Source: Acidobacteriota bacterium
GTDB lineage: Bacteria; Acidobacteriota; Terriglobia; Terriglobales; SCQP01
Assembly: GCA_021789895.1 (NCBI GenBank)
Contig: JAJYIU010000031.1
Location: forward strand, 1-39,825
Direction: 5' to 3'
Length of the DNA stretch: 39,825 nucleotides
In this document: piece by piece, positions 13,651 to 33,960 of the stretch
Position numbering within the stretch: the first letter of the stretch is position 1
How the letters are laid out: the number at the start of each line of letters is the position of its first letter
The notes under the pieces: generated by a model
What the model saw: the letters and a program-made list of their open reading frames with translations, nothing else
The model's database searches: none
Told to the model about the DNA's origin: nothing
Translations under genes and position numbers: made by a program

Positions 13651-14439
13651 ATGCGCCTGAGCGCCGTCTTCGCCGCCGTTGCGCTGCTCGCTTTCGCCGG
13701 ATGCCGCCGGCATGAGCGCGCAGCCGGCCGTATTGCGGCTCGCCCGCCGGAGGCTTCGAGCGGCTGGATCGACAGCCGCGGCGACGGCTTCCCCGATGCC
13801 GCCCATTTGACCAGCGCAAGCGATCGCCAGGCGCTGCGCCGCTGGATTGCCTTCATCGCCGAGAGCGAGTTTCAACATCCGCGGCAACTGGCCGCGCGGG
13901 TCGATTGCGCCGGCTTTGCTCGCTGGGTGCTGCAAGAGGCGCTGCGGCGCCATGACGCGCGCTGGTGGCGCCGCATGCGCTTCGCCTTCCTGCCTCCCGC
14001 CGCTGACGTCGCCGCCTGGAACTACCCCCAAGGGCCGCTGGGCGACCGTCTTTTCCGGATCCGGCCTGGCGCCTTCCATCCCTCCGACCTGGCCGATGGC
14101 ACATTCCGCAGTTTCGCCGACGCCCGCCATCTGATTCTATTCAACACCGTGCGGATCAGCCGGAATCTCGCCCCAGCCCGCCCCGGCGATCTACTCTTTT
14201 TCTATCAGCCGGGTCACAATGAGCCTTATCACACCATGCTCTATGTGGGTGGCTCGACTTATTTTCCAACTCATCATCACCGGTTTGTGGTATACGATAC
14301 GGGAGTAATGCCCGACGGACGCTCGGAGATCCGGATGATGGCGCTCAAGGCGCTGCGGCACTATCCCATTCCGCGCTGGCGGCCGGCGCTTTCCAACCCG
14401 CGCTTTCTCGGCGTCTATCGTTGGAAGATTTTGGAATAG
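13651..14439 (+). CDS. DUF1175 (YfaT-like) lipoprotein with NlpC/P60-like Cys/His pair
   Basis: A 262-residue protein. The N-terminus MRLSAVFAAVALLAFAGC ends in a plausible lipobox with C18 as lipid attachment site. The body matches the DUF1175 family typified by E. coli YfaT (WIDSRGDGFPDAAHL, SASDRQALRRWI, GDLLFFYQPG). A DCAGF motif with C86 and a YHTMLYVGG motif with H194 are arranged as the catalytic Cys and His of NlpC/P60 papain-like hydrolases. A peptidoglycan- or peptide-cleaving activity is therefore plausible; this is inference and not shown for the family. It stands 97 bases before the alpha-2-macroglobulin gene, the same association as yfaT-yfaS in E. coli. Its start has no good ribosome site. 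Confidence 0.8.
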   Translation: MRLSAVFAAVALLAFAGCRRHERAAGRIAARPPEASSGWIDSRGDGFPDAAHLTSASDRQALRRWIAFIAESEFQHPRQLAARVDCAGFARWVLQEALRRHDARWWRRMRFAFLPPAADVAAWNYPQGPLGDRLFRIRPGAFHPSDLADGTFRSFADARHLILFNTVRISRNLAPARPGDLLFFYQPGHNEPYHTMLYVGGSTYFPTHHHRFVVYDTGVMPDGRSEIRMMALKALRHYPIPRWRPALSNPRFLGVYRWKILE

Positions 14440-14536: not shown

Positions 14537-17500
14537 ATGGCTTCGAGTCGCTTAAAACAAGGCGTTCCTTGCATCAACCTGGAAATCTTTGCGTCCGCTC
14601 CGCTCCGGGCCGCGGCGCCGGTCATGACGGCACTGTTCCTGCTGCTGCCGCGTCCGATCCTGGCCGCGGCAAAACCGCATAAGCCGGCCTTCGTGCTGGC
14701 GACCGCGCGCACTTATGCCCCCGGCGAAAACGCCAAGTTCGTGCTGCGGTTTCGGGATGTCAGCGCAATCAAGTTTCGCGTTTACCGCGTCGCGCACCCG
14801 GTCCGTTTCTTCGAACAACTGAAAAACCCGCACCAGATCGGAGGGCCCAAAGTCCAAATCCCCGAAGTTCCGACATTATTGGAGCTATGGAGCCGGTGGA
14901 AGCGCGAACTGCGCTACAGCATGAAGAACTTCTTGCGTCATCAGTTCAGCTACGCCTTCCGCGCCGCCTATGTCAGGCGGCATAGCCGCCATTACACCAG
15001 CCTTAAGGTCGCAGTCACCCACTTCGCGGAGGTGCCGGTACTGAATCACTCGCAGTTGGTCGTGCGATGGACCGAATTGTTGCCGCGCGAACGCGATTGG
15101 GATAGCCGCGTCATTCCGCTGCGGATCAGCGGCTCCGGGCTATATCTGGTCGAGGCCAGCGCCCATGGCCGCTTCGCCGATACGATCCTGATCATCACGC
15201 ATCTCGGGTTGGTCATGAAGTCCGCGCCCGGCCAGATCGTCATTTTCGCCGCCGGCCGCAAGCGCGGCCAGCCGCGTCCGGGGACGCGGATCGTGCTGCG
15301 TCCGGCACAGCGGTATCTGGCAAAAATGACGATGCAGGGGGTGACCGGAGCCGACGGCTCCGTCAGCTTCAATCTTCCCGGCGGCGCGCCCCAGGATTGG
15401 GTCGCCCTGGGCCAGAAGGGCGATGATTTCGCCGCCACCGATCTCCCCTCCTGGTTCTTTAACAGCGCTTCCACCAAGACCATTCTCGGATATCTATACA
15501 CCGACCGGCCGGTGTACCGGCCGGGGGAAACGGTGCAGTATCGCGGCATCCTTAGGGAGCAGCAACACAACCTGTACCACATTCCGGCCGTACGCCAGAT
15601 TCAGGTCAAGATCACGGACGGCTCAGGCAAGACGGTGGCGGTTCAAACTCTCCCGCTCACGGCCATGGGCGCTTTTGCCGGGAGCTTGAAACTGGCAGCC
15701 TCCAGCGAACTGGGCTACTACTCGATGACGGCCAATCCGGTGGGGATCACCGGCGACGAAAGCGTGAATGCGTCCGCCTATTTTTCCGTGCAGGATTACA
15801 AGCTGCCCGCCTACCATGTCGATGTCAAGCCGGAGCAGCCGCGGATACTGGAAGGTGGCACCGAAAGCATCAACATTTCGGCCCGATATTATTATGGCGA
15901 TCCGGTACCGGCGGCGAAACTGACCTGGAAACTGCTGCGCTCGAGCTACTGGTCCCCGTGGGAGTACGAGTGGTCGGATGACATAGACGAGGGCGATTAC
16001 GGCGGCTATGATTACGGCGGCACGCCGATCCAACAGGGACAGGGGCGGCTGGATGCCCAGGGCCGTTTCCGCCTGCAAATTCCAGTCCCCGTCGCCAGCC
16101 GGCAAGGCAATTACAGCTACCGCCTGGTGGTGGGAGTTACCGACCTGGCCAACCGCGAGATTGATGGAGCAGGCACCTTTATCGCCACCTATTCCGACGA
16201 TCAGGTGGCCATCGCAGCAGTAAATTATTTCGCCGCCGCCGGCGCTGCCGTCCCATTCAATGTTCGCGCCGCCACTTACGAAAACAAGCCCATCGCAGTG
16301 GCGTTAACCGCATCCGATGCGCTGTATTCCTGGCTGGCGCCGAAAGGCTCGCGGGCGAAGCCGCTGGCGAGCGTCAACTTCGCCACCTCCGCCGATGGGA
16401 CGGCGCAATTTGCGCTGACCTGCAACGTGCCCGGCGATCACCGGGTTACCGTGGCCGGTTTCGACGCCCATGGCCGCCGGTTCAGCGACGAGACGTACTT
16501 CTATTGCCAGGGCCCCAGTGCGCTCCCGTACGCGACCGAATCGGGACAGGTCACGCTCAAGACGGACAAAAAGAGCTACCAACCCGGCGACATCGCCCGC
16601 GTTTTGGTTCAGCTTCCGGCATGGAAACATCCCTCTCCAGTCTGGCTCTGGTTGACGACGGAGCTGGATCGAGTCCGGACGCATGCCATTCTCAAGGCGG
16701 ACGGCAATACGGCGACCTTCGCCGTCCCGATCACCGCGGACGACATGCCCGACATCATGGCCGATGTCACCTTCCTCCGAAACGGCCAGATGTATACCGG
16801 CGAAGTGCGCATCAACGTCCCCGCCAACCGTCAAGCGCTTCGAATCCAGATTGAGCCAGGCAAGCCGCAATACACGCCCGGCGACGAGGCGAGCGTAACC
16901 GTCTCGGTCCGGGATGCCGCCGGGCATCCCGTGGCCAATGCGGATCTCGGCATCGCCGTCATTGACGACGCAATTTATGCCATCGCTCCCGATTCCTCGC
17001 CCGACATCTTCCAGTACTTCTACGGCTACCGCGTCAACCAGGTCTCGGTGCAGTACTCCGCCGACTACTACTTCGAGGGCTGGTCGGGACATCACCGGCT
17101 GAAACTGGCCCGCCGGCCGGTGACCAGTTATGCGGAACTCGCCGGCGCCTTGGGCGATGTGAAACCCACGCCCGCGCCGCCGACCCAACCGCACGTCCGC
17201 AAAAAATTTACCCCCACCGCGTTTTGGCGGGCCGGAGTACGAACTGGCGCGGACGGCCGCGCCACGGTGCATTTTAAACTGCCCGACAGCCTCACCTCCT
17301 GGCGCATCGGAATCCGCGCCGTAACCGCCTCGACGCAGGTTGGCTCCGCCCTGGCGCATTTCGTGACCCGCAAGAATCTGATGCTGGATCTGGCGCTGCC
17401 TCGTTTCGCGGTTGAAGGCGACCAGTGGACCACTTATGCCATCGTCCACAATGACCTGCCCACCACCCAGCAGGTTCATTTAACTTTGGCGGCCAAGACC

Positions 17501-19405
17501 GGCGCCCAGGCCGGCGGCGTTCAGGTAGCCAATAGCGGAACCCCGAAGCTGGCGGTCGCCTCCCACCAGCAGCAACGCTATCCCTGGCAGTTGACGGCGA
17601 CGCGCGCCGGAAATGTGAACCTTCTGGGCGCCGCGATTGGACAAACCGATTCCGATGCATTGGAATTGCCGCTGCCGATCAAGCCCAACGGCATCGAGCT
17701 GGCGCAAAGCTACAGCGGCGAGCTTTCGACCACGGACCAGGCTTCGTTTAGCTGGCAACCTCCGGCCGGCGCGCGACCGGCCGGTTCCTATCTGCTGCTG
17801 CATCTGGCCCCCTCGCTGACCGCGACGGCGCTGGGCGCCTTGCAAAATATGATTCAGTATCCGTACGGCTGCACCGAGCAGACCTCGTCGGTCATGCTCT
17901 CGATTCTGGCGGTTCGGGCGGCCGCCCGCAGCTTGCATCATCCCGAATTGGCGCCGGATGCGCAGCTTCTGCCGCGCCTGCGGACCGGCATCGCGCGCCT
18001 GGCCCACAGCCAGAACAACGATGGCGGCTGGGGCTGGTGGCCAGCGACGCCGAGCGATCCGTATATGAGCGCCTTGGCGGTGGAGGCGCTGGCCGGCGCC
18101 CAGGCCGCCGGAGCCGCGGTGAATGCGAGCCTGCTCCAACGCGGGCACGACTATCTGGTGGGGTTGTTGCGCGATCATCCCCGCATGATTCCCGATCTGC
18201 AAGCGCCGTTGCTGCTGGCGGCCAGACGTTCCGGCACGATTGCTCCGGCCTTGACCGACAATCTGTGGAGCTGGCGCTCGAAACTGTCGCTCCAGGGCCG
18301 GGCCGAAATGGTGCTACTGCTGGCTGAGACCAAGGATGCGCGCGCGCCGCAGGCGCTGCAACGCCTGTTGGGAATGGCCAAAAGCAACGCCCTGGAGATG
18401 TGGCTGCCGCAAGCCGGCGATGCCTGGCTCGGGTTCGGCGACCTGGACGACAGCGATTGGAGCGATTGGTATATTGACTTCGATATTGACGACAGCAGTC
18501 TCACCACGGCCACGGCGCTCGAGGCGATGCTGCGCCTGGAGCCGTCCGATCCCAGGGTCGTGAAAGCCATACGCTACCTGGTCGGACGCTCCGCTAACGA
18601 TTGGTGGGTTTCAACCGAACAGACCGCCGAAGTCATCACCGCGCTGGCCGACAGCCTGCAACGTTCCGGCGCGGGCGCCGAGATGAATCCGAATTTCACC
18701 GCCCGCGTGAAGGTCAACGGCGCCACGGTTGACCGCCATCGCTTCACCGCGGCCGACCTGCAGGCGCAGGCGCGCGAACTCCGTATCCCGCTGGGCCCGG
18801 GGCCGGTGACGGTCTCGCTGAACCGCCAAGGACCGGGCGTGCTCTATTGGGACGCCACCGTCGTCAGTTACTCGCGCGACGACCGCTATGTTCATCGCGG
18901 CGGCTTCAAACTCAATATCCTGCGCCAGTACTTCCGGCTGCAAGCGGTCAAAACCGTTGATTCGTCGGGGCAGCCAGCCATCGGTTACCGGCCCGTACCG
19001 CTGGCCGGAGCGCTGCATGTCGGCGACGTGCTCCTGGTCAAGCTCACCGTGAGCGGCGGCCGGCAAGCGCACCTGCTGATAGACGATCCGATTCCGGCCG
19101 GGGTGGAACCGGTGCCGCTCGACTCGCTCTACCCACTCCTGAACAAGGACGGCAAAGTGGGCTATGAGTTCGACTCAAACGATTTCTACGATTGGTTCGG
19201 CTACTCCCGCGTCTTCCGGGACGATCGCGTCAGTTTCTTCCAGGACCGTTTCCAACCCGGACAGCACACCTATTCTTATCTGGTCCGAGTGATTATCCCG
19301 GGAAAGTTCACGGCACTTCCGCCGCGGGTTGAACCGATGTACGATGCTTCGCGCCTGGCCACGGGCGACCGCAACTCAATGCAATTCCTGCCCAGCCAGC
19401 CCTGA
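14537..19405 (+). CDS. Bacterial alpha-2-macroglobulin with intact thioester
   Basis: A 1622-residue secreted protease-trap protein. The N-terminus (hydrophobic about 30-44, MTALFLLLPRPILAAA) is a signal peptide without a clear lipobox. The MG-domain hallmark TDRPVYRPGETVQYRG is at about 322-337. An acidic Tyr/Gly-rich insert (DEGDYGGYDYGG) lies near 485. The A2M core includes WRAGVRTGADGRATVHFKLP and LTSWRIGIRAVT. The thioester motif is YGCTEQ with C1112, E1114 and Q1115, within YPYGCTEQTSS. A helical thioester domain (NNDGGWGWW) and a C-terminal beta domain follow (MYDASRLATGDRNSM). Known bacterial A2Ms bait proteases and bind them covalently by the thioester in the periplasm. ATG 14537 has AAGGA just upstream. 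The next gene follows after 25 bases, so co-expression is likely. Neighbours are of the yfaS type, whereas thioester-bearing A2Ms in Proteobacteria usually accompany pbpC. Confidence 0.95.
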   Translation: MASSRLKQGVPCINLEIFASAPLRAAAPVMTALFLLLPRPILAAAKPHKPAFVLATARTYAPGENAKFVLRFRDVSAIKFRVYRVAHPVRFFEQLKNPHQIGGPKVQIPEVPTLLELWSRWKRELRYSMKNFLRHQFSYAFRAAYVRRHSRHYTSLKVAVTHFAEVPVLNHSQLVVRWTELLPRERDWDSRVIPLRISGSGLYLVEASAHGRFADTILIITHLGLVMKSAPGQIVIFAAGRKRGQPRPGTRIVLRPAQRYLAKMTMQGVTGADGSVSFNLPGGAPQDWVALGQKGDDFAATDLPSWFFNSASTKTILGYLYTDRPVYRPGETVQYRGILREQQHNLYHIPAVRQIQVKITDGSGKTVAVQTLPLTAMGAFAGSLKLAASSELGYYSMTANPVGITGDESVNASAYFSVQDYKLPAYHVDVKPEQPRILEGGTESINISARYYYGDPVPAAKLTWKLLRSSYWSPWEYEWSDDIDEGDYGGYDYGGTPIQQGQGRLDAQGRFRLQIPVPVASRQGNYSYRLVVGVTDLANREIDGAGTFIATYSDDQVAIAAVNYFAAAGAAVPFNVRAATYENKPIAVALTASDALYSWLAPKGSRAKPLASVNFATSADGTAQFALTCNVPGDHRVTVAGFDAHGRRFSDETYFYCQGPSALPYATESGQVTLKTDKKSYQPGDIARVLVQLPAWKHPSPVWLWLTTELDRVRTHAILKADGNTATFAVPITADDMPDIMADVTFLRNGQMYTGEVRINVPANRQALRIQIEPGKPQYTPGDEASVTVSVRDAAGHPVANADLGIAVIDDAIYAIAPDSSPDIFQYFYGYRVNQVSVQYSADYYFEGWSGHHRLKLARRPVTSYAELAGALGDVKPTPAPPTQPHVRKKFTPTAFWRAGVRTGADGRATVHFKLPDSLTSWRIGIRAVTASTQVGSALAHFVTRKNLMLDLALPRFAVEGDQWTTYAIVHNDLPTTQQVHLTLAAKTGAQAGGVQVANSGTPKLAVASHQQQRYPWQLTATRAGNVNLLGAAIGQTDSDALELPLPIKPNGIELAQSYSGELSTTDQASFSWQPPAGARPAGSYLLLHLAPSLTATALGALQNMIQYPYGCTEQTSSVMLSILAVRAAARSLHHPELAPDAQLLPRLRTGIARLAHSQNNDGGWGWWPATPSDPYMSALAVEALAGAQAAGAAVNASLLQRGHDYLVGLLRDHPRMIPDLQAPLLLAARRSGTIAPALTDNLWSWRSKLSLQGRAEMVLLLAETKDARAPQALQRLLGMAKSNALEMWLPQAGDAWLGFGDLDDSDWSDWYIDFDIDDSSLTTATALEAMLRLEPSDPRVVKAIRYLVGRSANDWWVSTEQTAEVITALADSLQRSGAGAEMNPNFTARVKVNGATVDRHRFTAADLQAQARELRIPLGPGPVTVSLNRQGPGVLYWDATVVSYSRDDRYVHRGGFKLNILRQYFRLQAVKTVDSSGQPAIGYRPVPLAGALHVGDVLLVKLTVSGGRQAHLLIDDPIPAGVEPVPLDSLYPLLNKDGKVGYEFDSNDFYDWFGYSRVFRDDRVSFFQDRFQPGQHTYSYLVRVIIPGKFTALPPRVEPMYDASRLATGDRNSMQFLPSQP

Positions 19406-19430: not shown

Positions 19431-20291
19431 ATGCGATTGAGCTTGTGGCATCGAGGCGCGGGCGGCGCGAAAACGCAGGAGACGGGCCAGCTCACGTCTT
19501 CGCAGCACGGATTCCGCCGGCGGCTATCCGAACTGGCAGATACATTCGCGCGCTTACGCTCCGGCGGACGGCCTTCCTGGCTTCTGGTTTTATTCTGCGG
19601 CGCGTGGATGCTGATCCTGGTGATCGCGTTTTTTGCCTGGCTGGGGCTTTCCGATTCGTCCGGCTGGTGGCTGGCCGCCCAGGCTGCCGGCTTCGTTCTG
19701 CTGTTATGGCTGCTGGTGTGGGGCTTAGGCTCGATCATACGCATCAGCCGCGGCGAATCCGGCGCACTCGGCGGGTGGGCAATCGCCTGGAAGGTATGGC
19801 TGTTGTTGGCCGGTTGGGCACTGCTGGCCTGGAGCATCTCTTCCTGGCTCGGTTGGCTCATTTCGTTCGCTTGGATCGCGCAATCCGAGCTGACCTTCCG
19901 GTTGCGGCATCCCGTGGCATTGGCGCTCATCACCACTCCATTGCAAACGGTTCAATGGTTGCTGAACTATGTGGTGTTTCCTGCGATCGCCATCGGGCTG
20001 CTCGCCAAATACATGCTGCACCGCCGGGAGCGTCTCATGGCGCGCTGGCGCCGCTGGAGCTTCTGGCTGGTTGCGATCTTGCTGGCCCTGGTCGGCGATG
20101 AATTCAGCGCCTGGCTCACTAACTGGCGGCCGGCGGTGACACCGGATTGGCGCGAGGTGGCGAGCGTTGCCTTGCGGCTGGCGGCGGCCGCGTTGATCTT
20201 CGTTTACTTTTTCCTGCTGCAAGTGGCCTGGTACGCATCCAGCCCGGAGGCGGCGCCCGCCAGCGCCCCGCTGCCTGGCCCCGTTAGCTAG
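19431..20291 (+). CDS. Six-helix inner-membrane protein of the A2M cluster, unknown function
   Basis: A 286-residue integral membrane protein. After a polar, basic N-terminus of about 45 residues, hydrophobic segments lie at about 50-71, 80-103, 120-148, 168-193, 208-226 and 243-268. They are rich in Trp (LVWGLG, WSISSWLGWLISFAW). The C-terminus is Pro/Ala-rich. I do not recognise a family and see no catalytic motif. ATG 19431, with GAGGAAAGGA upstream, was preferred to the in-frame ATG at 19329, which would overlap the A2M gene and add 34 non-hydrophobic residues. It is 25 bases downstream of the A2M gene and almost surely in its operon, so it may anchor, export or sense the A2M. Its stop TAG lies within CTAG, shared with the convergent next gene. 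Confidence 0.75.
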   Translation: MRLSLWHRGAGGAKTQETGQLTSSQHGFRRRLSELADTFARLRSGGRPSWLLVLFCGAWMLILVIAFFAWLGLSDSSGWWLAAQAAGFVLLLWLLVWGLGSIIRISRGESGALGGWAIAWKVWLLLAGWALLAWSISSWLGWLISFAWIAQSELTFRLRHPVALALITTPLQTVQWLLNYVVFPAIAIGLLAKYMLHRRERLMARWRRWSFWLVAILLALVGDEFSAWLTNWRPAVTPDWREVASVALRLAAAALIFVYFFLLQVAWYASSPEAAPASAPLPGPVS

Positions 20292-22786
20292 CGCACGGCG
20301 CGTTTTTCGCGGGCGTGGGAATGCAAAAATACCGCCAGGCCCTCGCGGCTAACTTGGGCGGCCACCCATTCGCCGCAAGCGGCATAGGCGGCCCGCAGCG
20401 CCGCCGGCGTGCGCGCATTCTCCAGGGCAGTTTCCCGTTGAGCCGCGGTCCGATGCTTCACGAGCCCGCGCGCCCGCATCGGTTCGCCGGCCAGCAGCAT
20501 GGCAAGCCCTTCCTGCGTGCAATGGCTGATGCCGGGCCGGAGATAGGCTTGCAGCACCACATGGAGCAGTTCGTGCTCCAGCACATGACGCAGAATGCCG
20601 CGTTTGACCAGCAACGCCTCCGGCTGCAGCGCCACCTTGCGGCCGCGAGTCAAGCCGCTGTACCAGCCGGATTGGCCGGTGGCCGCAATAAAGGCGGCGG
20701 TGGATGGAAACACCGTCAACGTGAGCTTGCCGGGAAGGCTATAGCCCAATTCGCGTTCGGCGGCGGCAAGCAACGGCTCGCACAGCCGCAGAACGCGCCG
20801 GGGCGCAGGGGCTTGATAGCGGATCTGGCAGCGCCCGGTATCCGCCGATTGCCAGTGGAAGCCGCCGCCGCCCGGCGGCGCGGTAGCCGCCGGCAGCGGC
20901 GGCCGTGCTTGGATTGCGGGCGCCCACCTTTCGATGCGGGTGTGCGGATAGTAAAAAGCTAGGATCGCCGCCCAGGTGGCGCCGCGGCGGGCCATGCCGG
21001 CGGCGCCGGCTTCGCAGAGCCCGGCGCCGTGGCCCAGTCCATGGCCGATAAATACCCAATTCCGGCCTTTCCGCCGAATGGAAAACCAGGTGCTCTTCAG
21101 CCGGTTCCAGCCCAGCCGGCGATCGACATCGAAGCGGAAATCGTCCGCGCGAATGACGATGCGCCGGCGTGAATCGAGGCGGGTCAGGAGCAGCGCCTGC
21201 GCCCGCCCGGCGCGATCGCGGGAGAGGATGGCCAGATCGAAGCGCGCGGGCGGCCGATGGAAAACGCCGGCGCCGGCCAATGCACGCGCCAGATCCCGGC
21301 TGCGAATCTCGGCCGTCCAGGTATGGTTGGGCGAGTTGCGACAGAACGGATCGGGATGGGCGCGCAAGTACGGCACCTGGTGCGGGACGAGCGGCGGCTT
21401 GGCGGATTCGGTGTATCCGCCGCAGTTGGCGCTGTAGAGCACCTGCACCGGGCGGCCGTGGTAAACCAGAATTTCTCCCGCGGTCGCGCGCGCCGCCGCT
21501 TGCGCTTCGCTCCCCGGCGGCAGCCAGGCCTGGCAGTGCGTCAAGGTGCAGAAGTCATAGCCCGCGGCCGCATGGCGGCCGCGGTGAGTCAGCGCCCAGG
21601 TGCGCGCCAGGACCGCCATGGCTTTCTGCGCCGCAAGCGGGAGCTGGCCGGCTTCGCCCTGCACCACCCCGGCAACGTAATCCTCCAACCGCATACGAAC
21701 GATCCTGAAACGGCCGGCTGCCGGCCCCCGCGGTAGCCGCACCCGCACCGTGGCCGCGCCGGCCGGCGGGCGCGCGCGCCACGCCCAGGCCCCGGGGTGC
21801 GCGTGCAGCCAGCGCAGAATCCGTCCGCCCAACCCGGCCGCATCGCGGCTTCCGCTGCCTTTGGGAACCAGCACCAGAACCAGCACTCGCGGCCGGGGCA
21901 GGGGGGCAAAGCCGGCAAACCAGGCATGGCTGCTTTCGCCGGCCTGCTCGGAGATCGTCCCCGTCTTGCCCGCGACCGGCCAGCCCCGAACCGCCGCCGC
22001 CTGGCAGCTTCCGTATTGGACGCAGCCGCGCAATCCCGAAGCAACGAACTGCAAGGCGCGGTCTCGCGGATGACGTTCAATCTGCCGCAGCAGCCGGAGA
22101 TAAGCCCGCGCCAACTGCCAGGGCGTGACGTGGATGCCCGCCGCGCCGATCGCCGCCGGCCCCAAGCCGCCGGCGCCGGAAAGCACGCGATCCGGACGCA
22201 GCCCATAAGGCGCCAGCGCCGCCTGCCAGGCGGAAAACGGCAGGCGTTGGGCCACCGTCAGGAAGAAATAATTGCAGGAAATTCCCAGGGCTTCGGCCAA
22301 ATTGATCGGCCGGGCGATGGCGGGATGGACGCATGCAAAGCGTTGGCCGTAGCGCGGCGTAACCCGCAGGCAGCGCAGATGATCGCCGCGCCGGACCACT
22401 CCGGAGCGCAGCAGCGCCAGGGCGGTCCAGGGCTTGATCGCGGAGCCCGGCAGCAGCCGCAAGCGCCGGGCCGCTGCCAGCCGGACCGCCGCTAATACTT
22501 TTCCGCTGGCGACATCCTCAATCAAAACGATGGCTTGCGCGGGCCGGGCGAGCTGTGCCGTTTCGCGGGCCAGCGCGGGCTGCCAGGCGATTTGCGCGCC
22601 GGCGCGGGCGGAAATGGCCATGACCGCGATCAACAAAAATTTGCAGGGCCGGACCGGCTGGCAGCGCCTGGAGCCCAAGGCACGCTTTCGCTCGCCTCCA
22701 TACGCTCGAATCGAAGCCGCGAATATCAAAGCAATTCCCATTGAAACGGCATAGGCTGGCGACCTACGCTGCAGAGGCCGCACCAA
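20288..22786 (-). CDS. Three-module protein: PBP-like domain, SpoIID domain, HExxH domain
   Basis: An 832-residue exported protein. Hydrophobic N-terminal stretches (15-25 and 50-60) act as signal or anchor; the true start is uncertain. Residues about 80-310 carry the three motifs of penicillin-binding-like serine enzymes in order: S115-A-I-K118, S170-C-N172 and K274-T-G276. Residues about 345-620 are a SpoIID/LytB domain: LEDYVAGVVQGEAG with E378, the position of the SpoIID catalytic Glu; VLYSANCGGYTE; GHGLGHGAGLCEAGAAGMA. Residues about 660-830 contain HELLH (738-742) and QEGLAML with E759, a gluzincin-type zinc site. SpoIID enzymes are lytic transglycosylases acting on glycan strands. Position beside YfaT- and YfaS-like genes suggests correspondence to YfaQ (DUF2300), but I could not confirm it by alignment. 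It converges on the A2M operon and its stop shares CTAG with the neighbour's. Confidence 0.8.
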   Translation of the reverse strand: MVRPLQRRSPAYAVSMGIALIFAASIRAYGGERKRALGSRRCQPVRPCKFLLIAVMAISARAGAQIAWQPALARETAQLARPAQAIVLIEDVASGKVLAAVRLAAARRLRLLPGSAIKPWTALALLRSGVVRRGDHLRCLRVTPRYGQRFACVHPAIARPINLAEALGISCNYFFLTVAQRLPFSAWQAALAPYGLRPDRVLSGAGGLGPAAIGAAGIHVTPWQLARAYLRLLRQIERHPRDRALQFVASGLRGCVQYGSCQAAAVRGWPVAGKTGTISEQAGESSHAWFAGFAPLPRPRVLVLVLVPKGSGSRDAAGLGGRILRWLHAHPGAWAWRARPPAGAATVRVRLPRGPAAGRFRIVRMRLEDYVAGVVQGEAGQLPLAAQKAMAVLARTWALTHRGRHAAAGYDFCTLTHCQAWLPPGSEAQAAARATAGEILVYHGRPVQVLYSANCGGYTESAKPPLVPHQVPYLRAHPDPFCRNSPNHTWTAEIRSRDLARALAGAGVFHRPPARFDLAILSRDRAGRAQALLLTRLDSRRRIVIRADDFRFDVDRRLGWNRLKSTWFSIRRKGRNWVFIGHGLGHGAGLCEAGAAGMARRGATWAAILAFYYPHTRIERWAPAIQARPPLPAATAPPGGGGFHWQSADTGRCQIRYQAPAPRRVLRLCEPLLAAAERELGYSLPGKLTLTVFPSTAAFIAATGQSGWYSGLTRGRKVALQPEALLVKRGILRHVLEHELLHVVLQAYLRPGISHCTQEGLAMLLAGEPMRARGLVKHRTAAQRETALENARTPAALRAAYAACGEWVAAQVSREGLAVFLHSHAREKRAVR

Positions 22787-22874
22787 TGAATTATTGCTAA
22801 AAAGAAACGGGCTGCACGGCGGAAGCTCTCCACCGCGGCCCCCGCCTCCAGAGCCGGCGCGCTATGATCGAATC

Positions 22875-25111: not shown

Positions 25112-26503
25112 TCAGGCGAGCGGCTGGTTCCATTTTTCCAGCGTCTCGACCACGGCGGCCAGGAACTGATCGGCCACCGCGCCGTCGATCACGCGGTGAT
25201 CGAAGCTGAGCGTGAGATGGACGATGGGGCGGATGGCGATCGCGTCGTCAATCACCACCGCGGTTTTATGGATGCCGCCGACGCCGAGGATCGCCACCTG
25301 GGGTTGATTGATCACCGGCAGGCCAAACAAGCCGCCAAAGATGCCGGGATTGGTGATCGAGAAGGTGCCGTCCTGGACCTCGTCGGGGCTGAGTTTTTTG
25401 GCGCGGGCGCGAGTGGCGAGGTCGTTGATGGCGCGCTGCAGCCCAAGGAAATTCTTTTCCTCGGCGTGCTTGATGACCGGCACGAGCAGGCCCCAATCGA
25501 GCGCCACGGCAATGCCCAGATTGATGTCCTTCTTGTAAACGATGGACTCTTCCTGGACGGAAGAGTTGACAATCGGAAAGCGCTTCAGCGCCTCGATCGC
25601 AGCCACGGCAAAAAACGGCATGAAAGTCAGCCGGGCGCCGTGACGGGTTTCAAAGTCGTTTTTCGCCTCGTCGCGCAGCCGGGCGATGCGGCTCATATCG
25701 GCTTGAAAAACCGAATAGACGTGCGGCGAGGTGCGCTTGCTCATCACCATATGCTCGGCGATGCGCTTGCGCATCAGCGACATGGGCACGATTTCCACCC
25801 CGCCGGGACGGGCGGGAGCCGCAGGCGCAGCCGGCGCCGCGGGGGCGGGCGCGGCCGGGCGTGAGGCCGGAGCGGGCGCGGCGGGCGCGGCCGGGCGTGC
25901 AGCCGGAGCCGAGGGCGCGGCTGGCGCCTGACGGCTTTCCAGGTACTGCATCAGGTCGTGTTTCGAGACGCGGCCGCCGATGCCGGTGCCGCGCACCTGG
26001 CGCAAATCCACTTTGTTTTCGCGCGCCAGCCGGCGGACCAGCGGCGAGGAGCGGATTTCACCCGCTTCGAGTTCGGCTTCTTCCTCTTCCGTTTTTTCTT
26101 CCACCGCTTCCGGCGGCGCAGCTTTAGCGGCGGCGGGCGAAGGCGGCGCCATGTGCCCGGCCGGCGGGGCAGAGAGTGGAGCGGGCGCGGCGGCGGGTTG
26201 TGCCGCCGGCGGTTCGGCGGCGGGCGCGCTTGGCGCAGCGGCGGGAGCGGCCGCGGCGGCCTCGCCCTCGCCCTCGAGTAGCGCCACCACGGTATTCACC
26301 GGCACGGTTTGGCCCTCGTGCACCTTGATTTCGCGCAGCACGCCGCTGGCCGGCGATGGAACTTCCGCATCCACTTTATCGGTGGAGATTTCAAACAGCG
26401 GCTCGTCGCGGGCCACGCTTTCGCCCGGCTGCTTCAGCCACTTGGTGACGGTGCCTTCGAAAATGGATTCGCCCATCTGGGGCATGACGACGTTCACGGG
26501 CAT
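25112..26503 (-). CDS. 2-Oxoacid dehydrogenase E2 (lipoyl acyltransferase)
   Basis: A 463-residue dihydrolipoamide acyltransferase. The N-terminal lipoyl domain (1-77) has the lipoylation lysine K43 in STDKVDAEV. Ala/Pro linkers flank a peripheral subunit-binding domain at about 145-185 (SSPLVRRLARENKVDL, GTGIGGRVSKHDL). The catalytic domain follows, with HMVMSKRTSPHVY and, near the end, FDHRVIDG (H436 and D440), the acyl-transfer signature. One lipoyl domain and the E1/E3 neighbours fit a branched-chain or broad 2-oxoacid complex rather than the larger three-lipoyl pyruvate type, but substrate cannot be settled from sequence. It is the last gene of the lpd-lipB-E1a-E1b-E2 run and starts 83 bases after E1 beta. 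Confidence 0.93.
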   Translation of the reverse strand: MPVNVVMPQMGESIFEGTVTKWLKQPGESVARDEPLFEISTDKVDAEVPSPASGVLREIKVHEGQTVPVNTVVALLEGEGEAAAAAPAAAPSAPAAEPPAAQPAAAPAPLSAPPAGHMAPPSPAAAKAAPPEAVEEKTEEEEAELEAGEIRSSPLVRRLARENKVDLRQVRGTGIGGRVSKHDLMQYLESRQAPAAPSAPAARPAAPAAPAPASRPAAPAPAAPAAPAAPARPGGVEIVPMSLMRKRIAEHMVMSKRTSPHVYSVFQADMSRIARLRDEAKNDFETRHGARLTFMPFFAVAAIEALKRFPIVNSSVQEESIVYKKDINLGIAVALDWGLLVPVIKHAEEKNFLGLQRAINDLATRARAKKLSPDEVQDGTFSITNPGIFGGLFGLPVINQPQVAILGVGGIHKTAVVIDDAIAIRPIVHLTLSFDHRVIDGAVADQFLAAVVETLEKWNQPLA

Positions 26504-26586
26504 AGGGCTAGCCTCATTTCAGAAAATGCTGGGGAAAGAATTATCGTCCCATGAAAGTGCGATGGCGGGCAATCTGCCCGGGGGGT

Positions 26587-27558
26587 TCAATAGCGCGCCA
26601 ATTGCTTGACCGATTCCGCCAGCCGCGCCGCCGAGGGCAAAAAGGCCTCTTCCAAGGGAGGCGAAAACGGCACCGGAGTATCGGCCGCGGTCAGGCGCAG
26701 GATGGGCCCGTCGAGATCGTCATAGGCATGCTCCTGCAACAGGGCGGTTATTTCGCCTGCCAGCCCGCCGGTGCGGGTATCTTCGTGCAGCACCAACACC
26801 TTGCTGGTGCGGCGCGCGCTGGCGAGAATGCCTTCCAGATCGAGCGGCAACAGCGTGCGCAGATCGAGCACTTCCAGTTCCAGGCCTTCGCCCGCCAGCC
26901 GATCGGCGGCTTCCAGCGCCAACGGCACCATCGCGCCGTAGGTGATCACACTGAGATCGCGTCCCGGGCGCGCCACCCGGGCTTTGCCCAGTGGTTCCAG
27001 GTGCTCGCCTTCGGGAACGTCTTCCTTCACCCGGCGGTAGAGAAACTTGTGCTCGAGGAAGATGACTGGATTGTTATCGCGAATAGCGCTTTTGAGCAAG
27101 CCCTTGGCGTCCACCGCGGTCGCCGGCTCGACCACTTTCAGCCCGGGGGTGTGGACGAAGTGCATTTCGGGATTCTGCGAATGAAACGGGCCGCCATGCA
27201 CCCCGCCGCCGGCCGGTCCGCGCAGCACGATCGGCACCGGCGCGCCCCAGCGGTAATGGCTCTTGGCGGCGAAATTGACGACCTGATTGAAGGCGCAGGC
27301 GATGAAATCCATGAACTGGAATTCGACCACGGGACGCATGCCGGTATAAGCGGCGCCAATGGCGGCGCCGACCAGCGCCGACTCGGCCAGCGGCGCATCC
27401 ATCACCCGGACCGGGCCAAAGGCGTCCACCAGGCCGGCGGTGGCCTTGAAAGCGCCGCCATAAACGCCGATATCTTCGCCCAGAAGAAAAACAGCGGGAT
27501 CGCGCCGCATTTCTTCTTCGAGCGCGAGGCGTATGGCTTCGACGTAGGTCAACTGCAT
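26587..27558 (-). CDS. 2-Oxoacid dehydrogenase E1 component, beta subunit
   Basis: A 323-residue protein, the family's normal size. Conserved runs include LTYVEAIRLALEEEM, VFLLGEDIGVYGGAFKAT and VMDAPLAESALVGAAIG, whose E59 matches the glutamate that activates thiamine diphosphate. Others are VEFQFMDFI, RGPAGGGVHGGPFHSQ and the C-terminal transketolase domain (DLSVITYGAMV, VLDLRTLLPLD). It starts at ATG 27558, five bases after the E1 alpha stop, with GGAG in front; an upstream in-frame start would overlap E1 alpha and was rejected. With E1 alpha it decarboxylates the 2-oxoacid and passes the acyl group to lipoyl-E2. Branched-chain substrate is likely but unproven. Confidence 0.95.
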   Translation of the reverse strand: MQLTYVEAIRLALEEEMRRDPAVFLLGEDIGVYGGAFKATAGLVDAFGPVRVMDAPLAESALVGAAIGAAYTGMRPVVEFQFMDFIACAFNQVVNFAAKSHYRWGAPVPIVLRGPAGGGVHGGPFHSQNPEMHFVHTPGLKVVEPATAVDAKGLLKSAIRDNNPVIFLEHKFLYRRVKEDVPEGEHLEPLGKARVARPGRDLSVITYGAMVPLALEAADRLAGEGLELEVLDLRTLLPLDLEGILASARRTSKVLVLHEDTRTGGLAGEITALLQEHAYDDLDGPILRLTAADTPVPFSPPLEEAFLPSAARLAESVKQLARY

Positions 27559-27563
27559 AACGA

Positions 27564-29018
27564 TCAGCTCTCCGCCTGGGGCCGCCGGCGTCCGCCACGG
27601 CCGAGAAAACGCGGCCGGGGCTGATGGCAGCCGTCGCAATAGACTCCCTCGAAGGCGCGCTCGGGGGGCGGCATCGGGCTGGCTTCGGCGGCGTCGCGCT
27701 CCGCCAGCGTTTCGCTATCCACTTCGCGCCGCAGCGCCTCCGCCGCGCCCTCCTCCAGCCAGCCTTTCTGCTTAAGCCACCCTTCCAGACGTGTGATCGG
27801 GTCGCGCAGTCGCCAGAACTCCAGCATGGGCGGCGGCACGTAGGCGGCGGGGTCGTGTATGGCGTGGCCTTTCATCCGCATCAGCTTGGCTTCGATCAGC
27901 GTCGGGCCGCCGCCGGCGCGGGCGCGCTCCACCGCCTGATGCGCCGCCTGATAGACCTGAAATGGATCGGTGCCGTCCACGATCATTGCCGGAATGCCGT
28001 AGGCGCGGGCGCGGATGGCGAGATCGCGGATGCGGGTTTGCTTTTGCAAGGGCGTGGAATAGGCCCAGAGGTTGTTTTCCACGATCAGCACCAGCCCCAG
28101 ATTCTGCACCGCGGCGAAGTTGAGACCTTCGTGAAAGACCCCGGTGCTCTGGCCGCCATCGCCGATCCAGGTCATGGCGGCGATTTCGCGGCCCTGCAGG
28201 CGCTCGCCCAGGCAGACGCCCGACATTACCGGAATCAGGTCGCCCAGCATGGAAATCGGCGCGATCACGCGCCGCGGGCCAAGATCGCCGAAGTGCGAGG
28301 TGCCGTCTTTGCCGCCGGTGGGCGAATCGGCGCGGGCCATGTACTGCATCATGATGTCGCGCGGACGGAAGCCGCGCACCAGCAAACTGCCCTGGTTGCG
28401 GATCATCGGCGCCATCCAGTCGCCGGCGCCGAGCGCATAAGCGGAGGCGACCGAGCAGCCTTCCTGCCCCAGCCCGAAATAGACGCCACCGACCACCTGG
28501 CTTTGCTTATAAAGATTTTCCAACTGCAGCTCGAGCGAGCGGTTCAGCAGCATCCAGCGAAAGATTTCCAGGCATTGCTCGCGGCTCAACCCGCGCGGTT
28601 CGACCAGCGGCGGCGGCGGGGTGATCGCCCCCGACCAGCGATACGCCAGCTTGCCTTCATTCCAAATCTCTTCCAGTTCGAAGCGCAGGCGCTCCTGGCG
28701 CAGATCCTGAAACCATTCGGTCGAGGCAGGGCGCGCGCCGCGAGGGGCGGGCCGGGGCGGCTGCGATTCACCCGAACGCGGGCTGGGGCCGCGCCGGCGA
28801 CGCCAGCGCAAGCCGGGGCGCTCGCGCCGCTCCCCGCCGCGCGGCTGGGCCGCCTCCGTCGGCGGCGCCGCTTTCGGCCGGTTCGGCTGGGCGGCTTCGG
28901 CCGGAGCCGGCGCTTCCGGCCGTGCCGGGCCGGGTTCGGACGCAGGCCCGCCTTTCGCCGGCGCGGTCTCCGCCGCGGCGGGCGGGTTCGCGGTTATAGG
29001 ATTTTCGTTCTCGGCCAT
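27564..29018 (-). CDS. 2-Oxoacid dehydrogenase E1 alpha with long basic N-terminal extension
   Basis: A 484-residue protein. The catalytic part (about 105-440) has the thiamine-diphosphate motif GDGG...NN (G286 to N316, IGDGGQSTG and IVENNLWAY), the lead-in FGLGQEGCSV and the phosphorylation-loop-like KGHAIHDPA. Before it lies about 100 residues of Pro/Ala/Glu followed by an Arg-rich stretch (GGERRERPGLRWRRRRG). The C-terminus adds a CDGC motif (C461/C464) and a basic tail. Neither is usual for E1 alpha, and both look disordered or nucleic-acid-binding-like. ATG 29018, with GAGG upstream, was chosen; ATG 29066 would overlap lipB by 23 bases and has no ribosome site. It works as an alpha2beta2 heterotetramer with the next gene's product. 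Confidence 0.93.
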   Translation of the reverse strand: MAENENPITANPPAAAETAPAKGGPASEPGPARPEAPAPAEAAQPNRPKAAPPTEAAQPRGGERRERPGLRWRRRRGPSPRSGESQPPRPAPRGARPASTEWFQDLRQERLRFELEEIWNEGKLAYRWSGAITPPPPLVEPRGLSREQCLEIFRWMLLNRSLELQLENLYKQSQVVGGVYFGLGQEGCSVASAYALGAGDWMAPMIRNQGSLLVRGFRPRDIMMQYMARADSPTGGKDGTSHFGDLGPRRVIAPISMLGDLIPVMSGVCLGERLQGREIAAMTWIGDGGQSTGVFHEGLNFAAVQNLGLVLIVENNLWAYSTPLQKQTRIRDLAIRARAYGIPAMIVDGTDPFQVYQAAHQAVERARAGGGPTLIEAKLMRMKGHAIHDPAAYVPPPMLEFWRLRDPITRLEGWLKQKGWLEEGAAEALRREVDSETLAERDAAEASPMPPPERAFEGVYCDGCHQPRPRFLGRGGRRRPQAES

Positions 29019-29043
29019 GCCTGCCTCGCTATCATTATGCGCA

Positions 29044-29850
29044 TTATCCGCATTCTGCGCCGGCATGGAAATCCAGTTCGCGGCCGGGGACAGCGGGCGC
29101 AGAGGACGCGGCAGCAGTGGCGGCCACGGCCGCGCGCCATTCCGGCTGCGGTTTCCAGACCAGGGCGCGGCCGAAGACCTGGCTGAAATGAAGCGCCAGC
29201 GGCGCTAACACTTCACTCACTGCCAGCGGGCGTCCAAGCTCGCGAGCGAGCGAGCTGACGCCGCGGCCGCGTATGCCGCAGGGCAGAATGGCGCCGAATC
29301 CGGCCAGGTCGGGAGCGACATTCAAGGCAAAGCCATGCGTGGTTACGCCGCGCGCGATATGCACGCCGATGGCGGCGAACTTGCGTTCAGGCGGCTGCGC
29401 CGTCCAGACGCCGGTCAGCCCGGCCAGGCGCCGGGCGGCAATGCCGAACCCGGCAGCCACGCGCATCAGCACTTCTTCCAGGGCGCGCACGTATTCAACC
29501 GCGCCCAGCCCCGGGCGCTTGCGCTCGCCGGCGCCGGGCGGCGGCGGCAGCTCGCGCAGGTCGAGAATGGGATAGCCGACCAGTTGTCCAGGGCCGTGCC
29601 AGGTGACATCGCCGCCACGATTGCACTCGGCTACTTCAATGCCGCGCGCCGCCAGGCGCTCGGGGGTTTCCAGCAGGTGCTCGCGGCGGGCGTTGCGGCC
29701 CAGCGTCACGACCGCATCATGCTCGAGCAGCAGTAACTGATCGCCGCAGCGCCGCCGCTGCCGCTGGGCTTCGACCTCGGCCTGGAGGCGGAGCGCGGCG
29801 GCATAGCCGAGACGCCCGAGATAAACAGCTTCGATCACCGGCTCAGGCAT
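29044..29850 (-). CDS. lipB: Lipoyl (octanoyl) transferase
   Basis: A 268-residue LipB. It moves octanoate from acyl carrier protein to lipoyl domains, the first step of lipoate synthesis. The signature RGGDVTWHGPGQLVGYPILDL is at 78-98. The catalytic lysine is K157 (RKFAAIGVHI) and the acyl-forming cysteine is C191 (LPCGIRG). A C-terminal extension of about 45 Ala-rich residues is unusual but mild. The gene lies between lpd (42 bases upstream) and E1 alpha (25 bases downstream), so the E2 substrate and its modifying enzyme are probably co-transcribed. Confidence 0.96.
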   Translation of the reverse strand: MPEPVIEAVYLGRLGYAAALRLQAEVEAQRQRRRCGDQLLLLEHDAVVTLGRNARREHLLETPERLAARGIEVAECNRGGDVTWHGPGQLVGYPILDLRELPPPPGAGERKRPGLGAVEYVRALEEVLMRVAAGFGIAARRLAGLTGVWTAQPPERKFAAIGVHIARGVTTHGFALNVAPDLAGFGAILPCGIRGRGVSSLARELGRPLAVSEVLAPLALHFSQVFGRALVWKPQPEWRAAVAATAAASSAPAVPGRELDFHAGAECG

Positions 29851-29892
29851 GACGTTCCTGCCGCATCGCGCGTAGCGCGCGGCCCCCTGCGG

Positions 29893-31299
29893 TCACATAT
29901 TGATGGTCAGGCCATAGACCGAGTTGGCGGCATCGAGCATGGCCTCATAGACGGTCGGATGGGCATGGATGGTCTGCATCAGCTCATCCGCCGAAACCTG
30001 CAACTGCATGCCCAGTGTGGCTTCCGAAACCAGTTCGGTCACCAGCGGGCCGATCATGTGCACTCCCAAAATGGTGCCGTCTTTCTCGTCCGCCAGCATT
30101 TTGATAAAGCCTTCATGCTGGCCGAGGATGGTGGCCTTGGAGTTGCCGGCAAAGCTGAACTTGCCGGCCTTGTAGCGCAGGCCGCGGTCGCGCGCCGCCT
30201 GCTCGGTCAGGCCGACGCTGGCCACCTGGGGCTCGCAGTAGGTGCAATTGGGGCAGAGGCGATAATCCAGCGGCTGGATGGGGCGGCCGGCGATGTGCGC
30301 CACCGCGACCATGCCTTCCATCGAAGCCGCATGCGCGAGCTGCGGCGCGCCGGCAACGATATCGCCGATGGCGTAAACGCCGGGCTCGCCGGTGCGCATA
30401 AAGCCGTCGGTGCGTAGAAAGCCGCGCTCGAGTTGCACCCGGCTGGCTTCGAGGTTCAAGCCTTCCGTCACCGGCTTGCGCCCGACCGCGACCAGCACCT
30501 GCTCGGCCTCGAGCGCCTGCGCCTTGCCATCCGCGGCGGTGAAGCTCACTTTGACCTTATCCGGCCCGGGCTCGACTTTTTCCACGCGCGCGCCGGTATG
30601 GATGGCGATCTTCTGCTTTTTCAGCGCCTTTTCGATCTCGCGCGATATTTCTTCATCTTCAACCGGCAGGACGCGCGGCAGCATCTCCAGCAGCGTGACC
30701 TGCGTGCCGAAGCGGACGTACATCGAGGCGAACTCGACTCCGACCGCGCCGGCGCCGATGATCACCAGCGACTTGGGCACGTCTTTCAGCGACAGGATTT
30801 CGACGTTGGTCAGCACCCGGCCGCCAGCCTTCAGCCCGGGCAGCAGGCGGGCTTCCGAGCCGGTAGCGAGAATGATATTTTTGGCTTCGAGCTCGAAGGC
30901 CGCGCCCTCGGGCGGCGCCACCGCGAGCCGGCCCGGGCCGGCCCAACTGGCGCGTCCCTTGATCCATTCGATTTTGTGCTTGCGAAACAGGAACTCGATT
31001 CCCTTCGAGTGCTTGTTGACGATCTTGTCTTTGCGCGACTGCGCCAGCGGCCAATCGAGGCTGAATTCGCCGGCGCGGATGCCGAATTCCTGAGCGCGAC
31101 GGAAAGTATCGAGCACTTCGGCGTTGTGCAGCAGCGCCTTGGTGGGAATGCAGCCGACCAGCAGGCAGGTGCCGCCCAGGCGCGCATCTTTTTCCACCAC
31201 CGCCACCGAGAGCCCGTACTCGGCGCCGCGAATCGCCGCCCAGTACCCGCCCGGGCCGCTGCCCACCACCACCAGATCGAATTTGCGCTTATCTGCCAT
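29893..31299 (-). CDS. lpdA: Dihydrolipoamide dehydrogenase (E3)
   Basis: A 468-residue flavoprotein that reoxidises dihydrolipoyl-E2 with NAD+. It has the FAD Rossmann motif VVGSGPGGYWAA, the redox disulfide GGTCLLVGCIPTKALL (C45 and C50) and a second nucleotide motif VIIGAGAVGVEFASMY. The second FAD motif is VYAIGDIV, and the interface catalytic pair H447/E452 lies in HAHPTVYEAM. Leu instead of the usual Asn within the redox motif (CLLVGC) is a small departure. ATG 31299 gives the normal N-terminus; the 28 upstream residues in frame do not fit. It is the first gene of the run lpd-lipB-E1a-E1b-E2. Confidence 0.97.
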   Translation of the reverse strand: MADKRKFDLVVVGSGPGGYWAAIRGAEYGLSVAVVEKDARLGGTCLLVGCIPTKALLHNAEVLDTFRRAQEFGIRAGEFSLDWPLAQSRKDKIVNKHSKGIEFLFRKHKIEWIKGRASWAGPGRLAVAPPEGAAFELEAKNIILATGSEARLLPGLKAGGRVLTNVEILSLKDVPKSLVIIGAGAVGVEFASMYVRFGTQVTLLEMLPRVLPVEDEEISREIEKALKKQKIAIHTGARVEKVEPGPDKVKVSFTAADGKAQALEAEQVLVAVGRKPVTEGLNLEASRVQLERGFLRTDGFMRTGEPGVYAIGDIVAGAPQLAHAASMEGMVAVAHIAGRPIQPLDYRLCPNCTYCEPQVASVGLTEQAARDRGLRYKAGKFSFAGNSKATILGQHEGFIKMLADEKDGTILGVHMIGPLVTELVSEATLGMQLQVSADELMQTIHAHPTVYEAMLDAANSVYGLTINM

Positions 31300-31494
31300 A
31301 AAATGAAGACCGCCTTGCGCGCCGGAAGCGGCACCGGATGGCCCGGAATATTGCCTGATGCTCCGGCGCGGGGGAAACAACAATCTTAGCGCACTGCCGG
31401 CCCCGGCCGGGGGCAGCGAAAAGACACAGGGCCGGGACCGGACGGCTGCCGCACAGGCGGCGGCCGCCCGGCGATGCTGAATTTTCGCTCCCGA

Positions 31495-32904: not shown

Positions 32905-33048
32905 TCGCTGCTCCTCTGCCGTAGAGAGCGGAGATTCAACCGCAGACGGGGCCAGAGTAGCAGAAGCCCGAGGGGCAAGGGTGCGGCGGCGGCGCGAGTA
33001 TCGCCGCTGCCATTCCAACCGGCATGTGGTTAAACTGGAAATTAGTAC

Positions 33049-33960
33049 ATGAGCGCCCCGGCATTAATCCAGATCGCCGCCCGAGCGCAGCCGCCGGCGC
33101 GGCCGGAGTGGCTGCGGTCGCGCGCGCCGTTTGGCGAAAATTACCACCGGCTGAAAAAGCTGGCGCGCGGGCTGGAGCTGCATACGGTATGCGAATCGGC
33201 CCGCTGTCCCAACCTGGGAGAATGCTGGCACCACGGCACGGCTACGTTCATGCTGCTGGGCGATATATGCACCCGGCGCTGCGGCTTTTGCGCCGTCCCC
33301 AAGGGACGCCCGCTGCCGATTGATTGGGACGAGCCACGGCGCGTGGCCGAGGCCGTCGCCACGCTGGGCCTGCGCCATGCCGTGCTGACCTCGGTCAACC
33401 GCGATGACGATAACCTGGGCGGAGCCCGCATCTTCGCGCAGAGCATTGCCGCCATACGCAAGCTCGCCTCCGGCTGCAACATCGAAGTGCTGATTCCCGA
33501 CTTCAAGGGCAGCCGCGAAGCGCTCGAAATCGTCATCGCCGCCCGGCCGGAAATCCTCAATCACAACACCGAGACCGTTCCCGAGCTCTACCGCTTCGTG
33601 CGCCCTGGCGCCCGCTTCGAACGCTCGCTGGAACTTTTGGCCAGGGTGAAAGAGATCGCGCCGGCCATGCTGTCGAAAACCGGCCTGATGCTCGGGTTGG
33701 GCGAGACCCGGGATCAACTCGAAGCGGCCTTGCGCCGCCTGGCCGCGACCGGCTGCGATATCCTTACCCTCGGCCAATACCTGCAGCCGACGCGCAATCA
33801 TCTGCCGGTCAAGCGCTTTTATCCGCCGGAGGAATTTACCGAATGGCGGCGTTTCGGGCTCGCATGCGGATTCCGCCACGTCGAATCGGGCCCGCTGGTC
33901 CGCAGCTCTTACCATGCCCACGCCCAGGCCGAAGGGCTGGCGCCATCTGTGCAAAACTAG
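33049..33960 (+). CDS. lipA: Lipoyl synthase
   Basis: A 303-residue radical SAM enzyme that inserts two sulfurs into octanoyl-lipoyl domains. It has the auxiliary cluster motif C48-x4-C53-x5-C59 ([12 protein letters not shown]), the radical SAM cluster C74-x3-C78-x2-C81 (CTRRCGFC) and the C-terminal RSSYHA (285-290) whose serine ligates the auxiliary cluster. All ligands are present and the length is standard. It starts at ATG 33049 with only a weak ribosome site. The gene is divergent from the beta-CASP gene by 144 bases. Together with lipB at 29 kb and the E2 substrate at 25 kb, the window carries the full endogenous lipoylation route. Confidence 0.97.

Follow-up and report, generated by a model that had tools for sequence, protein, structure and literature searches.

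A three-module protein with transpeptidase, SpoIID and zinc-peptidase signatures at alpha-2-macroglobulin loci of Acidobacteriota

What does a single protein that joins a transpeptidase of the penicillin-binding protein (PBP) type, a SpoIID domain and a zinc-peptidase-like domain do beside a gene for alpha-2-macroglobulin (A2M)? This question is raised by contig JAJYIU010000031.1 of an Acidobacteriota bacterium (GenBank assembly GCA_021789895.1), of which positions 1 to 39,825 of the forward strand were analysed (39,825 nucleotides, hereafter the window). Bacterial A2Ms, the bacterial version of the human immune protein alpha-2-macroglobulin, are thought to guard the periplasm, and their operon partners are mostly domains of unknown function (DUFs). 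The answer that we favour, and consider somewhat probable, is that the three-module protein is a periplasmic, peptidoglycan-acting partner in an A2M envelope-defence locus and a homologue of Escherichia coli YfaQ with intact active-site signatures. What the sequences show is the three modules, the conservation of their motifs, a DUF1175-A2M gene pair that is both a neighbour and a co-occurring partner, and colinearity with YfaQ.

The three-module gene lies at 20288..22786 on the minus strand and comprises 832 codons without an internal stop; an initial annotation of the window had given the coordinates correctly and left out the strand. The frame is the largest open one, read from a TTG codon, with the first in-frame ATG at 22741, and the TTG start at 22786 is only 7 bases from a divergent open reading frame (ORF) at 22794. 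The N-terminus is hydrophobic, with about 25–45 residues between it and the transpeptidase domain. The protein is present in a single copy in its own genome, and its best named matches are metagenome-assembled genomes of Acidobacteriota (Bryobacterales, Terriglobia, Acidobacteriaceae).

To follow the architecture across relatives, 88 SpoIID loci were compared, comprising the window, matches down to E 4.8e-29 in a phylum sample of 396 genomes, the genomes G003 and G058, seven deliberately weak SpoIID controls (L220–L226), and seven (L031–L037) of the 80 loci that match the window protein, the other 73 of which match mostly its transpeptidase domain. Some of the genome records are metagenome-assembled, and phyla beyond Acidobacteriota are represented by plasmids, E. 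coli and the 80-locus match list. All three modules are present at 34 of the 88 loci, in one frame at 22 and as adjacent genes in the same order at 12; the other 54 comprise 14 with SpoIID and the zinc-peptidase module, 7 with transpeptidase and SpoIID, and 33 with SpoIID alone. The initial annotation had called the architecture unusual, whereas it is instead widespread in Acidobacteriota and not unique to the window. Profiles, comparison of folds and conservation support its other claim, that PBP-like, SpoIID and zinc-peptidase-like modules share one chain, and the motifs that it had listed (SxxK, SxN and KTG, then a SpoIID signature, then HELLH with a downstream Glu) do occur in that order with all key residues in place.

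The transpeptidase domain (residues 91–314, 21845..22516, minus strand) matches Pfam PF00905 with an E value of 4.6e-22 and 79 bits against a curated cut-off of 22.1. Fold comparison places it with PBP2, PBP3 and similar proteins (Z 29–31, about 30 to PBP2/PBP3; root-mean-square deviation (rmsd) 2.8–4.0 over 261–289 residues). The SxxK motif (GSAIK, Ser115–Lys118, 22433..22444, minus strand) keeps its Ser and Lys at 34 of 34 three-module loci, the SxN motif (SCN, residues 170–172, 22271..22279, minus strand) is likewise kept at 34 of 34, and KTG (residues 274–276, 21959..21967, minus strand) is kept at 33, with KTA at the remaining one. In class B PBPs, an N-terminal pedestal or dimerisation region precedes the transpeptidase domain. 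The residues ahead of the domain in the window protein are too few for such a pedestal, and the module is best described, from its sequence, as class B-like and not as a class B PBP. The PbpC model scores only 10.7 bits against the window protein.

The SpoIID/LytB domain (residues 362–619, 20930..21703, minus strand) matches the NCBIfam model TIGR02669 with an E value of 1.4e-48 and 166.1 bits against a cut-off of 83.3, and Pfam SpoIID (PF08486) over residues 362–442 with an E value of 4.3e-16 and 59.8 bits against a cut-off of 23. The first Foldseek match of the model is the crystal structure of Clostridioides difficile SpoIID (5i1t, E 3.8e-14). Glu378 (21653..21655, minus strand), a Glu at 34 of 34 three-module loci, occupies what we take to be the position of the SpoIID catalytic Glu, and the conserved Cys and His presumably form the metal site; the Cys is found at 34 of 34 loci and the His at 26 of 34. 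Further motifs of this region in the window are CTLTHC (residues 413–418) and GHGAG (residues 585–589). With their signatures intact, transpeptidase and SpoIID catalysis in the acidobacterial protein are both putative activities.

The C-terminal part, from about residue 635 to residue 832 (20291..20884, minus strand), has no Pfam match over cut-off in the window protein, and is recognised by its fold. The C-terminal 198 residues, modelled alone, reach a predicted local distance difference test (pLDDT) score of 88.4 and a predicted template-modelling (pTM) score of 0.85. The fold is of the gluzincin type, with gluzincins in the Foldseek/VIA rows: the top Foldseek rows are collagenases, LTA4 hydrolase and aminopeptidases, and structural alignment gives Z 13.0 to collagenase H (ColH, 4ar1; rmsd 4.1 over 182 residues) and Z 11–12 to M1 aminopeptidases. 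Absence of a family from the rows of these Protein Data Bank fold lists was not counted as evidence. HELLH (residues 738–742, 20561..20575, minus strand) provides the HExxH motif, which is present at 33 of 34 three-module loci, and Glu759 (20510..20512, minus strand), by position the third zinc ligand, is conserved at 34 of 34. Peptidase_MA_2 (PF13485) gives no match to the window at E 1; 6 of 32 relatives match at E ≤ 0.01, and those matches inspected individually are below cut-off. A match of eCIS_core to the zinc region (E 0.1; 0.018) is also below cut-off and was taken as a generic HExxH match.

An AlphaFold2 model of the window protein, built with 12 rows from related loci, has a mean pLDDT of 81.5 and a pTM of 0.42, a value so low that the relative arrangement of the domains is not given by the model. 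At the level of secondary structure, the models place the motifs where the folds require: SxxK opens a helix, KTG falls on a strand, and HExxH and Glu759 occupy a long helix and the one after it, respectively, so that the active-site placement on which the initial annotation had staked its proposal holds at that level. The profile E values and the conservation across 34 loci rule out chance motifs or a wrong frame. A recent fusion produced by assembly is likewise ruled out, since 22 of the 34 loci have the one-frame form and three changes between fused and split states are needed on the tree of the joined domains.

The window protein is encoded beyond a DUF1175-A2M gene pair. The DUF1175 gene (YfaT family, 13651..14439, plus strand) matches PF06672 with an E value of 3.1e-58 and carries an NlpC/P60-like DCAG with a downstream His; E. 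coli YfaT has a weak NLPC_P60 match, and the DUF1175 protein is a candidate for another enzyme of the locus that acts on the wall. The A2M gene (14537..19405, plus strand), the only copy found in the genome, encodes 1622 amino acids with MG2, bait-region, A2M, TED and MG10 domains, and its thioester motif reads CTEQ. The motif is present here despite the DUF1175 neighbour, which in E. coli goes with a type II A2M. Both genes run towards the three-module gene, and a single ORF intervenes (19431..20291, plus strand), which is hydrophobic, probably encodes a membrane protein and has a stop that overlaps the end of the three-module gene. This ORF has no Pfam match, and its counterpart in the nearest relative, L139, shows partial conservation (53% over 122 amino acids). 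The A2M partnership, which lies outside the coordinates of the initial annotation, is the main significance of the three-module protein.

An A2M gene lies within 9 kb of 29 of the 34 three-module loci versus 0 of the 54 other SpoIID loci (Fisher p 1.8e-18, a value that ignores shared ancestry), the loci having been chosen by similarity to the SpoIID and zinc-peptidase half of the window protein. The A2M gene is on the opposite strand at 21 of these 29 loci, and the CxEQ thioester motif is present in all 28 A2Ms with that part in view, the 29th (L032) ending short of it. Co-occurrence gives the same picture: among 60 relatives, DUF1175 is found in 11 genomes, exactly the same 11 that have the transpeptidase, SpoIID and zinc-peptidase modules (Fisher p 2.9e-12). 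In the 396-genome phylum sample, taken as the same draw as that of the SpoIID loci because size and handles agree, DUF1175 is over cut-off in 54 genomes. DUF1175 is carried by all 28 genomes whose fetched loci include the canonical three-module order, and the other 26 DUF1175 genomes comprise 24 of the family f25 together with G298, with a canonical fusion beside A2M, and G253, with DUF1175-A2M on one contig and transpeptidase and SpoIID at a contig end. Altogether, all three modules are found in 49 of the 54 DUF1175 genomes, and the set is incomplete in the stretches seen of G253, G342, G363, G369 and G375.

The three-module set occurs fused, split and permuted. The genome G003, of the same family as the window, likewise has the three modules in one frame, while nine genomes of the sister family have the transpeptidase and the SpoIID-zinc-peptidase part as two adjacent genes. 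In the tree of the joined domains, the fused state occurs on both sides of the midpoint and three fused/split changes are needed, at least two of them forced by well-supported branches, which suggests that the fusion is old or has arisen more than once. In family f25, the set is permuted to transpeptidase, zinc peptidase and SpoIID in 20 of the 24 DUF1175 genomes; it stands beside A2M in 20 of 20, behind DUF1175-A2M, and GSxxK, SCN, KTG and HExxH are kept in 20 of 20. That the set is kept beside one partner through splitting, fusion and permutation is, on such comparative grounds, strong evidence of joint function.

The permuted f25 loci are L227, L228, L237–L252, L255 and L256, and L228 carries all three permuted modules in one frame of 787 residues. 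At two further loci, both of genus g183 (L229 of G342 and L253 of G363), a transpeptidase follows A2M, and SpoIID and the zinc-peptidase module were not detected in the stretch.

E. coli provides a counterpart. In strain K-12, yfaQ adjoins yfaS (A2M), near yfaT (DUF1175), with yfaS annotated as a pseudogene in MG1655. YfaQ has a match to the Pfam SpoIID model over cut-off (27 bits against 23, E 7.2e-6), and profile–profile comparison with YfaQ and its Citrobacter homologue recovers all three modules (transpeptidase E 0.0012, SpoIID E 1.8e-9, zinc peptidase E 0.0069). A full-length hhalign comparison, based on 21 fused rows with exclusion of L196 (zinc part broken over two frames), gives a colinear match with an E value of 1.3e-6 over YfaQ residues 12–548, and the score of each module against YfaQ is reached by 0 of 100 column shuffles. 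YfaQ thus resembles the window protein in lying beside A2M and near DUF1175 and in its colinear transpeptidase-like, SpoIID-like and HExxH parts, and differs from it in its tandem DUF2300 annotation, its yfaA-yfaT-yfaS-yfaQ-yfaP cluster and its length (549 versus 832 amino acids). It keeps GSxxK and HEYLH, whereas SxN reads SCG, KTG reads KTW and the SpoIID part is shorter; it seems to be a three-module protein that has partly degenerated, and signature residues blurred in YfaQ are intact in the acidobacterial forms.

DUF2300 (PF10062) has no match in the window protein and is over cut-off in 0 of 199 genomes of the phylum. One of 32 zinc domains scanned (a set without the window and L196), that of L033, matches DUF2300 directly across the whole model, with 31.1 bits against 25. 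As the DUF2300 model so rarely matches Acidobacteriota, the homology with YfaQ rests on the profile–profile comparison together with this direct match. YfaQ has been described as transpeptidase-like and SpoIID-like in the main text of a 2025 study (PMC12282094), by which deletion of yfaQ gives wider cells in several media and groups with deletions that affect wall remodelling. That main text has no occurrence of the words macroglobulin, yfaS, zinc or metallo; compared with it, the zinc module, the link to A2M and the intact version of the protein seem new. Literature searches found no paper that, by its title and the opening of its abstract, links SpoIID with macroglobulin, and none on macroglobulin with Acidobacteria and transpeptidase; no link of YfaQ or DUF1175 with macroglobulin is among the matches listed.

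How the parts might work together can be set out as a proposal. On a breach of the outer membrane and an attack on the wall, the A2M would use its thioester and bait region to trap incoming proteases. Glycan strands stripped of stem peptides would be found and cut by the SpoIID module, and the transpeptidase module would re-link neighbouring stem peptides. For the gluzincin module, the proposed task is local trimming of proteins or peptides, among which may be the A2M or the prey that it has trapped. The three-module protein would correspond in this scheme to PBP1C, the partner of type I A2Ms. A trap-and-repair role has been proposed for type I A2Ms, which adjoin pbpC, in passages of PMC5764988 and PMC3328433, and the mag (A2M) operon of Pseudomonas aeruginosa, according to parts of PMC12663445, protects against VgrG3 and Tae1, peptidoglycan-targeting effectors of the type VI secretion system (T6SS). 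From these precedents and the effect of magE deletion, we infer a wall-directed partner, each catalytic step and the repair itself being inferred.

The main rival is that the protein serves A2M maturation: it would anchor, fold or process A2M, with the gluzincin cutting it and the transpeptidase and SpoIID modules holding the complex on peptidoglycan. Deletion of magE in P. aeruginosa leaves MagD unprocessed (PMC5764988), MagE follows MagD as YfaQ follows YfaS, an order by which alone MagE would be the YfaQ counterpart, and in L033 it is the zinc module that matches DUF2300 of Pfam. Against this, the transpeptidase and SpoIID catalytic signatures are kept in nearly all 34 loci, which would be unnecessary for modules that only anchored the complex to the wall; moreover, PMC5764988 itself suggests that the role is that of a chaperone or concerns the signal peptide, and the zinc motif of G003 reads HDLLH. 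We consider maturation unlikely as the explanation, and note that it is compatible with a wall-directed function, the two not being exclusive. A house-keeping enzyme of envelope growth, for example in the control of cell width, with no part in defence and joined to A2M only by a conserved gene cluster, would agree with the widened cells of the E. coli yfaQ deletion, an effect that may not depend on A2M because yfaS is an annotated pseudogene in MG1655. Such an enzyme would be expected to be near-universal within the order, yet the set is patchy (11 of 60 relatives) and tied exactly to DUF1175, which makes this account improbable. Least probable of all, and by our estimate very much so, is that the modules are pseudoenzymes forming a non-catalytic scaffold that binds peptidoglycan and A2M; YfaQ, with SxxK beside its altered SxN and KTG positions and shortened SpoIID part, may be such a protein, whereas the acidobacterial motifs are intact at 33–34 of 34 canonical loci and 20 of 20 permuted loci.

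Several observations weigh against the wall-directed envelope-defence partner that we favour. The protection data for mag, in the published passages, concern MagD and not MagE. No A2M lies within 9 kb at 5 of the 34 three-module loci; four of the five have a DUF1175-A2M pair elsewhere in the genome, and the fifth (L170) has DUF1175 nearby, with A2M not found. Related genomes share ancestry, and the Fisher values overstate their independence. Plasmids of Deinococcus and Meiothermus (L162, L163) carry DUF1175-A2M without an annotated adjacent SpoIID or PBP gene, which indicates that the three-module set is not needed by every DUF1175-linked A2M. Finally, the HDLLH of the nearest relative (L139 of G003) is the sole departure from HExxH among the 34 three-module loci, and the PxWxxEG context of other loci is lost in the lineage of the window; together they suggest that the zinc site may be decaying or weakening in this lineage. 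On the two plasmids, a short hypothetical gene follows DUF1175-A2M.

A bacteriophage or T6SS-type toxin was also considered; the window contains no neighbours that would support it, and no search against PADLOC or PHROGs was made. A plasmid search with the window protein returned 5 records, 0 of them with 80% coverage. Adjoining the locus, at 25112–33960, are a 2-oxoacid dehydrogenase complex set together with LipB, lipoyl synthase-like radical SAM and beta-CASP RNase-like genes.

If the envelope-defence partnership holds, it replaces the label DUF2300 with a concrete proposal, a transpeptidase with a SpoIID-type transglycosylase and a zinc peptidase, whose association with A2M shows in gene order, in phylogenetic profile and through domain permutation. 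The long-standing notion that A2M loci trap and repair could then be put to the test by ordinary enzymology, and the partnership suggests that a bacterial relative of a human immune protein belongs to a defence system with a wall-care arm.

Comparison with known systems places the locus beside, and not within, the described kinds. A type I system has a CxEQ A2M beside pbpC; here the thioester is present and the partner is not PbpC. The likeness to type I is that a thioester A2M is paired with a PBP-type partner, and the difference is that this partner is a lone class B-like transpeptidase with SpoIID and zinc-peptidase modules, whereas PBP1C is a glycosyltransferase-transpeptidase. Against the six-gene type II system, in which the A2M is without a thioester and the partner set is taken as in E. 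coli (DUF1175, DUF2138, DUF2300, DUF2135), the acidobacterial loci have the thioester and DUF1175, and none of 12 acidobacterial genomes has DUF2138 or DUF2135. The SpoIID/LytB domain is shared with SpoIID of the DMP engulfment complex, the partners of which are SpoIIM and SpoIIP (abstract of PMC9600426), and the window protein differs in its other modules and its A2M context. The Mag operon, comprising the type II A2M MagD and MagE, is likewise a multi-gene A2M operon (as outlined in parts of PMC5764988); by the same partial account, MagD lacks the CxEQ thioester, in contrast to the acidobacterial A2Ms. We raise, as a tentative possibility, that Acidobacteriota possess a third kind of A2M system, in which the A2M has a thioester, the DUF1175 protein is NlpC/P60-like, and both would be obligately paired with a fused, split or permuted transpeptidase, SpoIID and gluzincin set, a catalytic, ancestral-type YfaQ/MagE that would repair the wall within a system resembling innate immunity. 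Such a system, if true, would account for the protection that Mag affords against peptidoglycan-attacking T6SS effectors.

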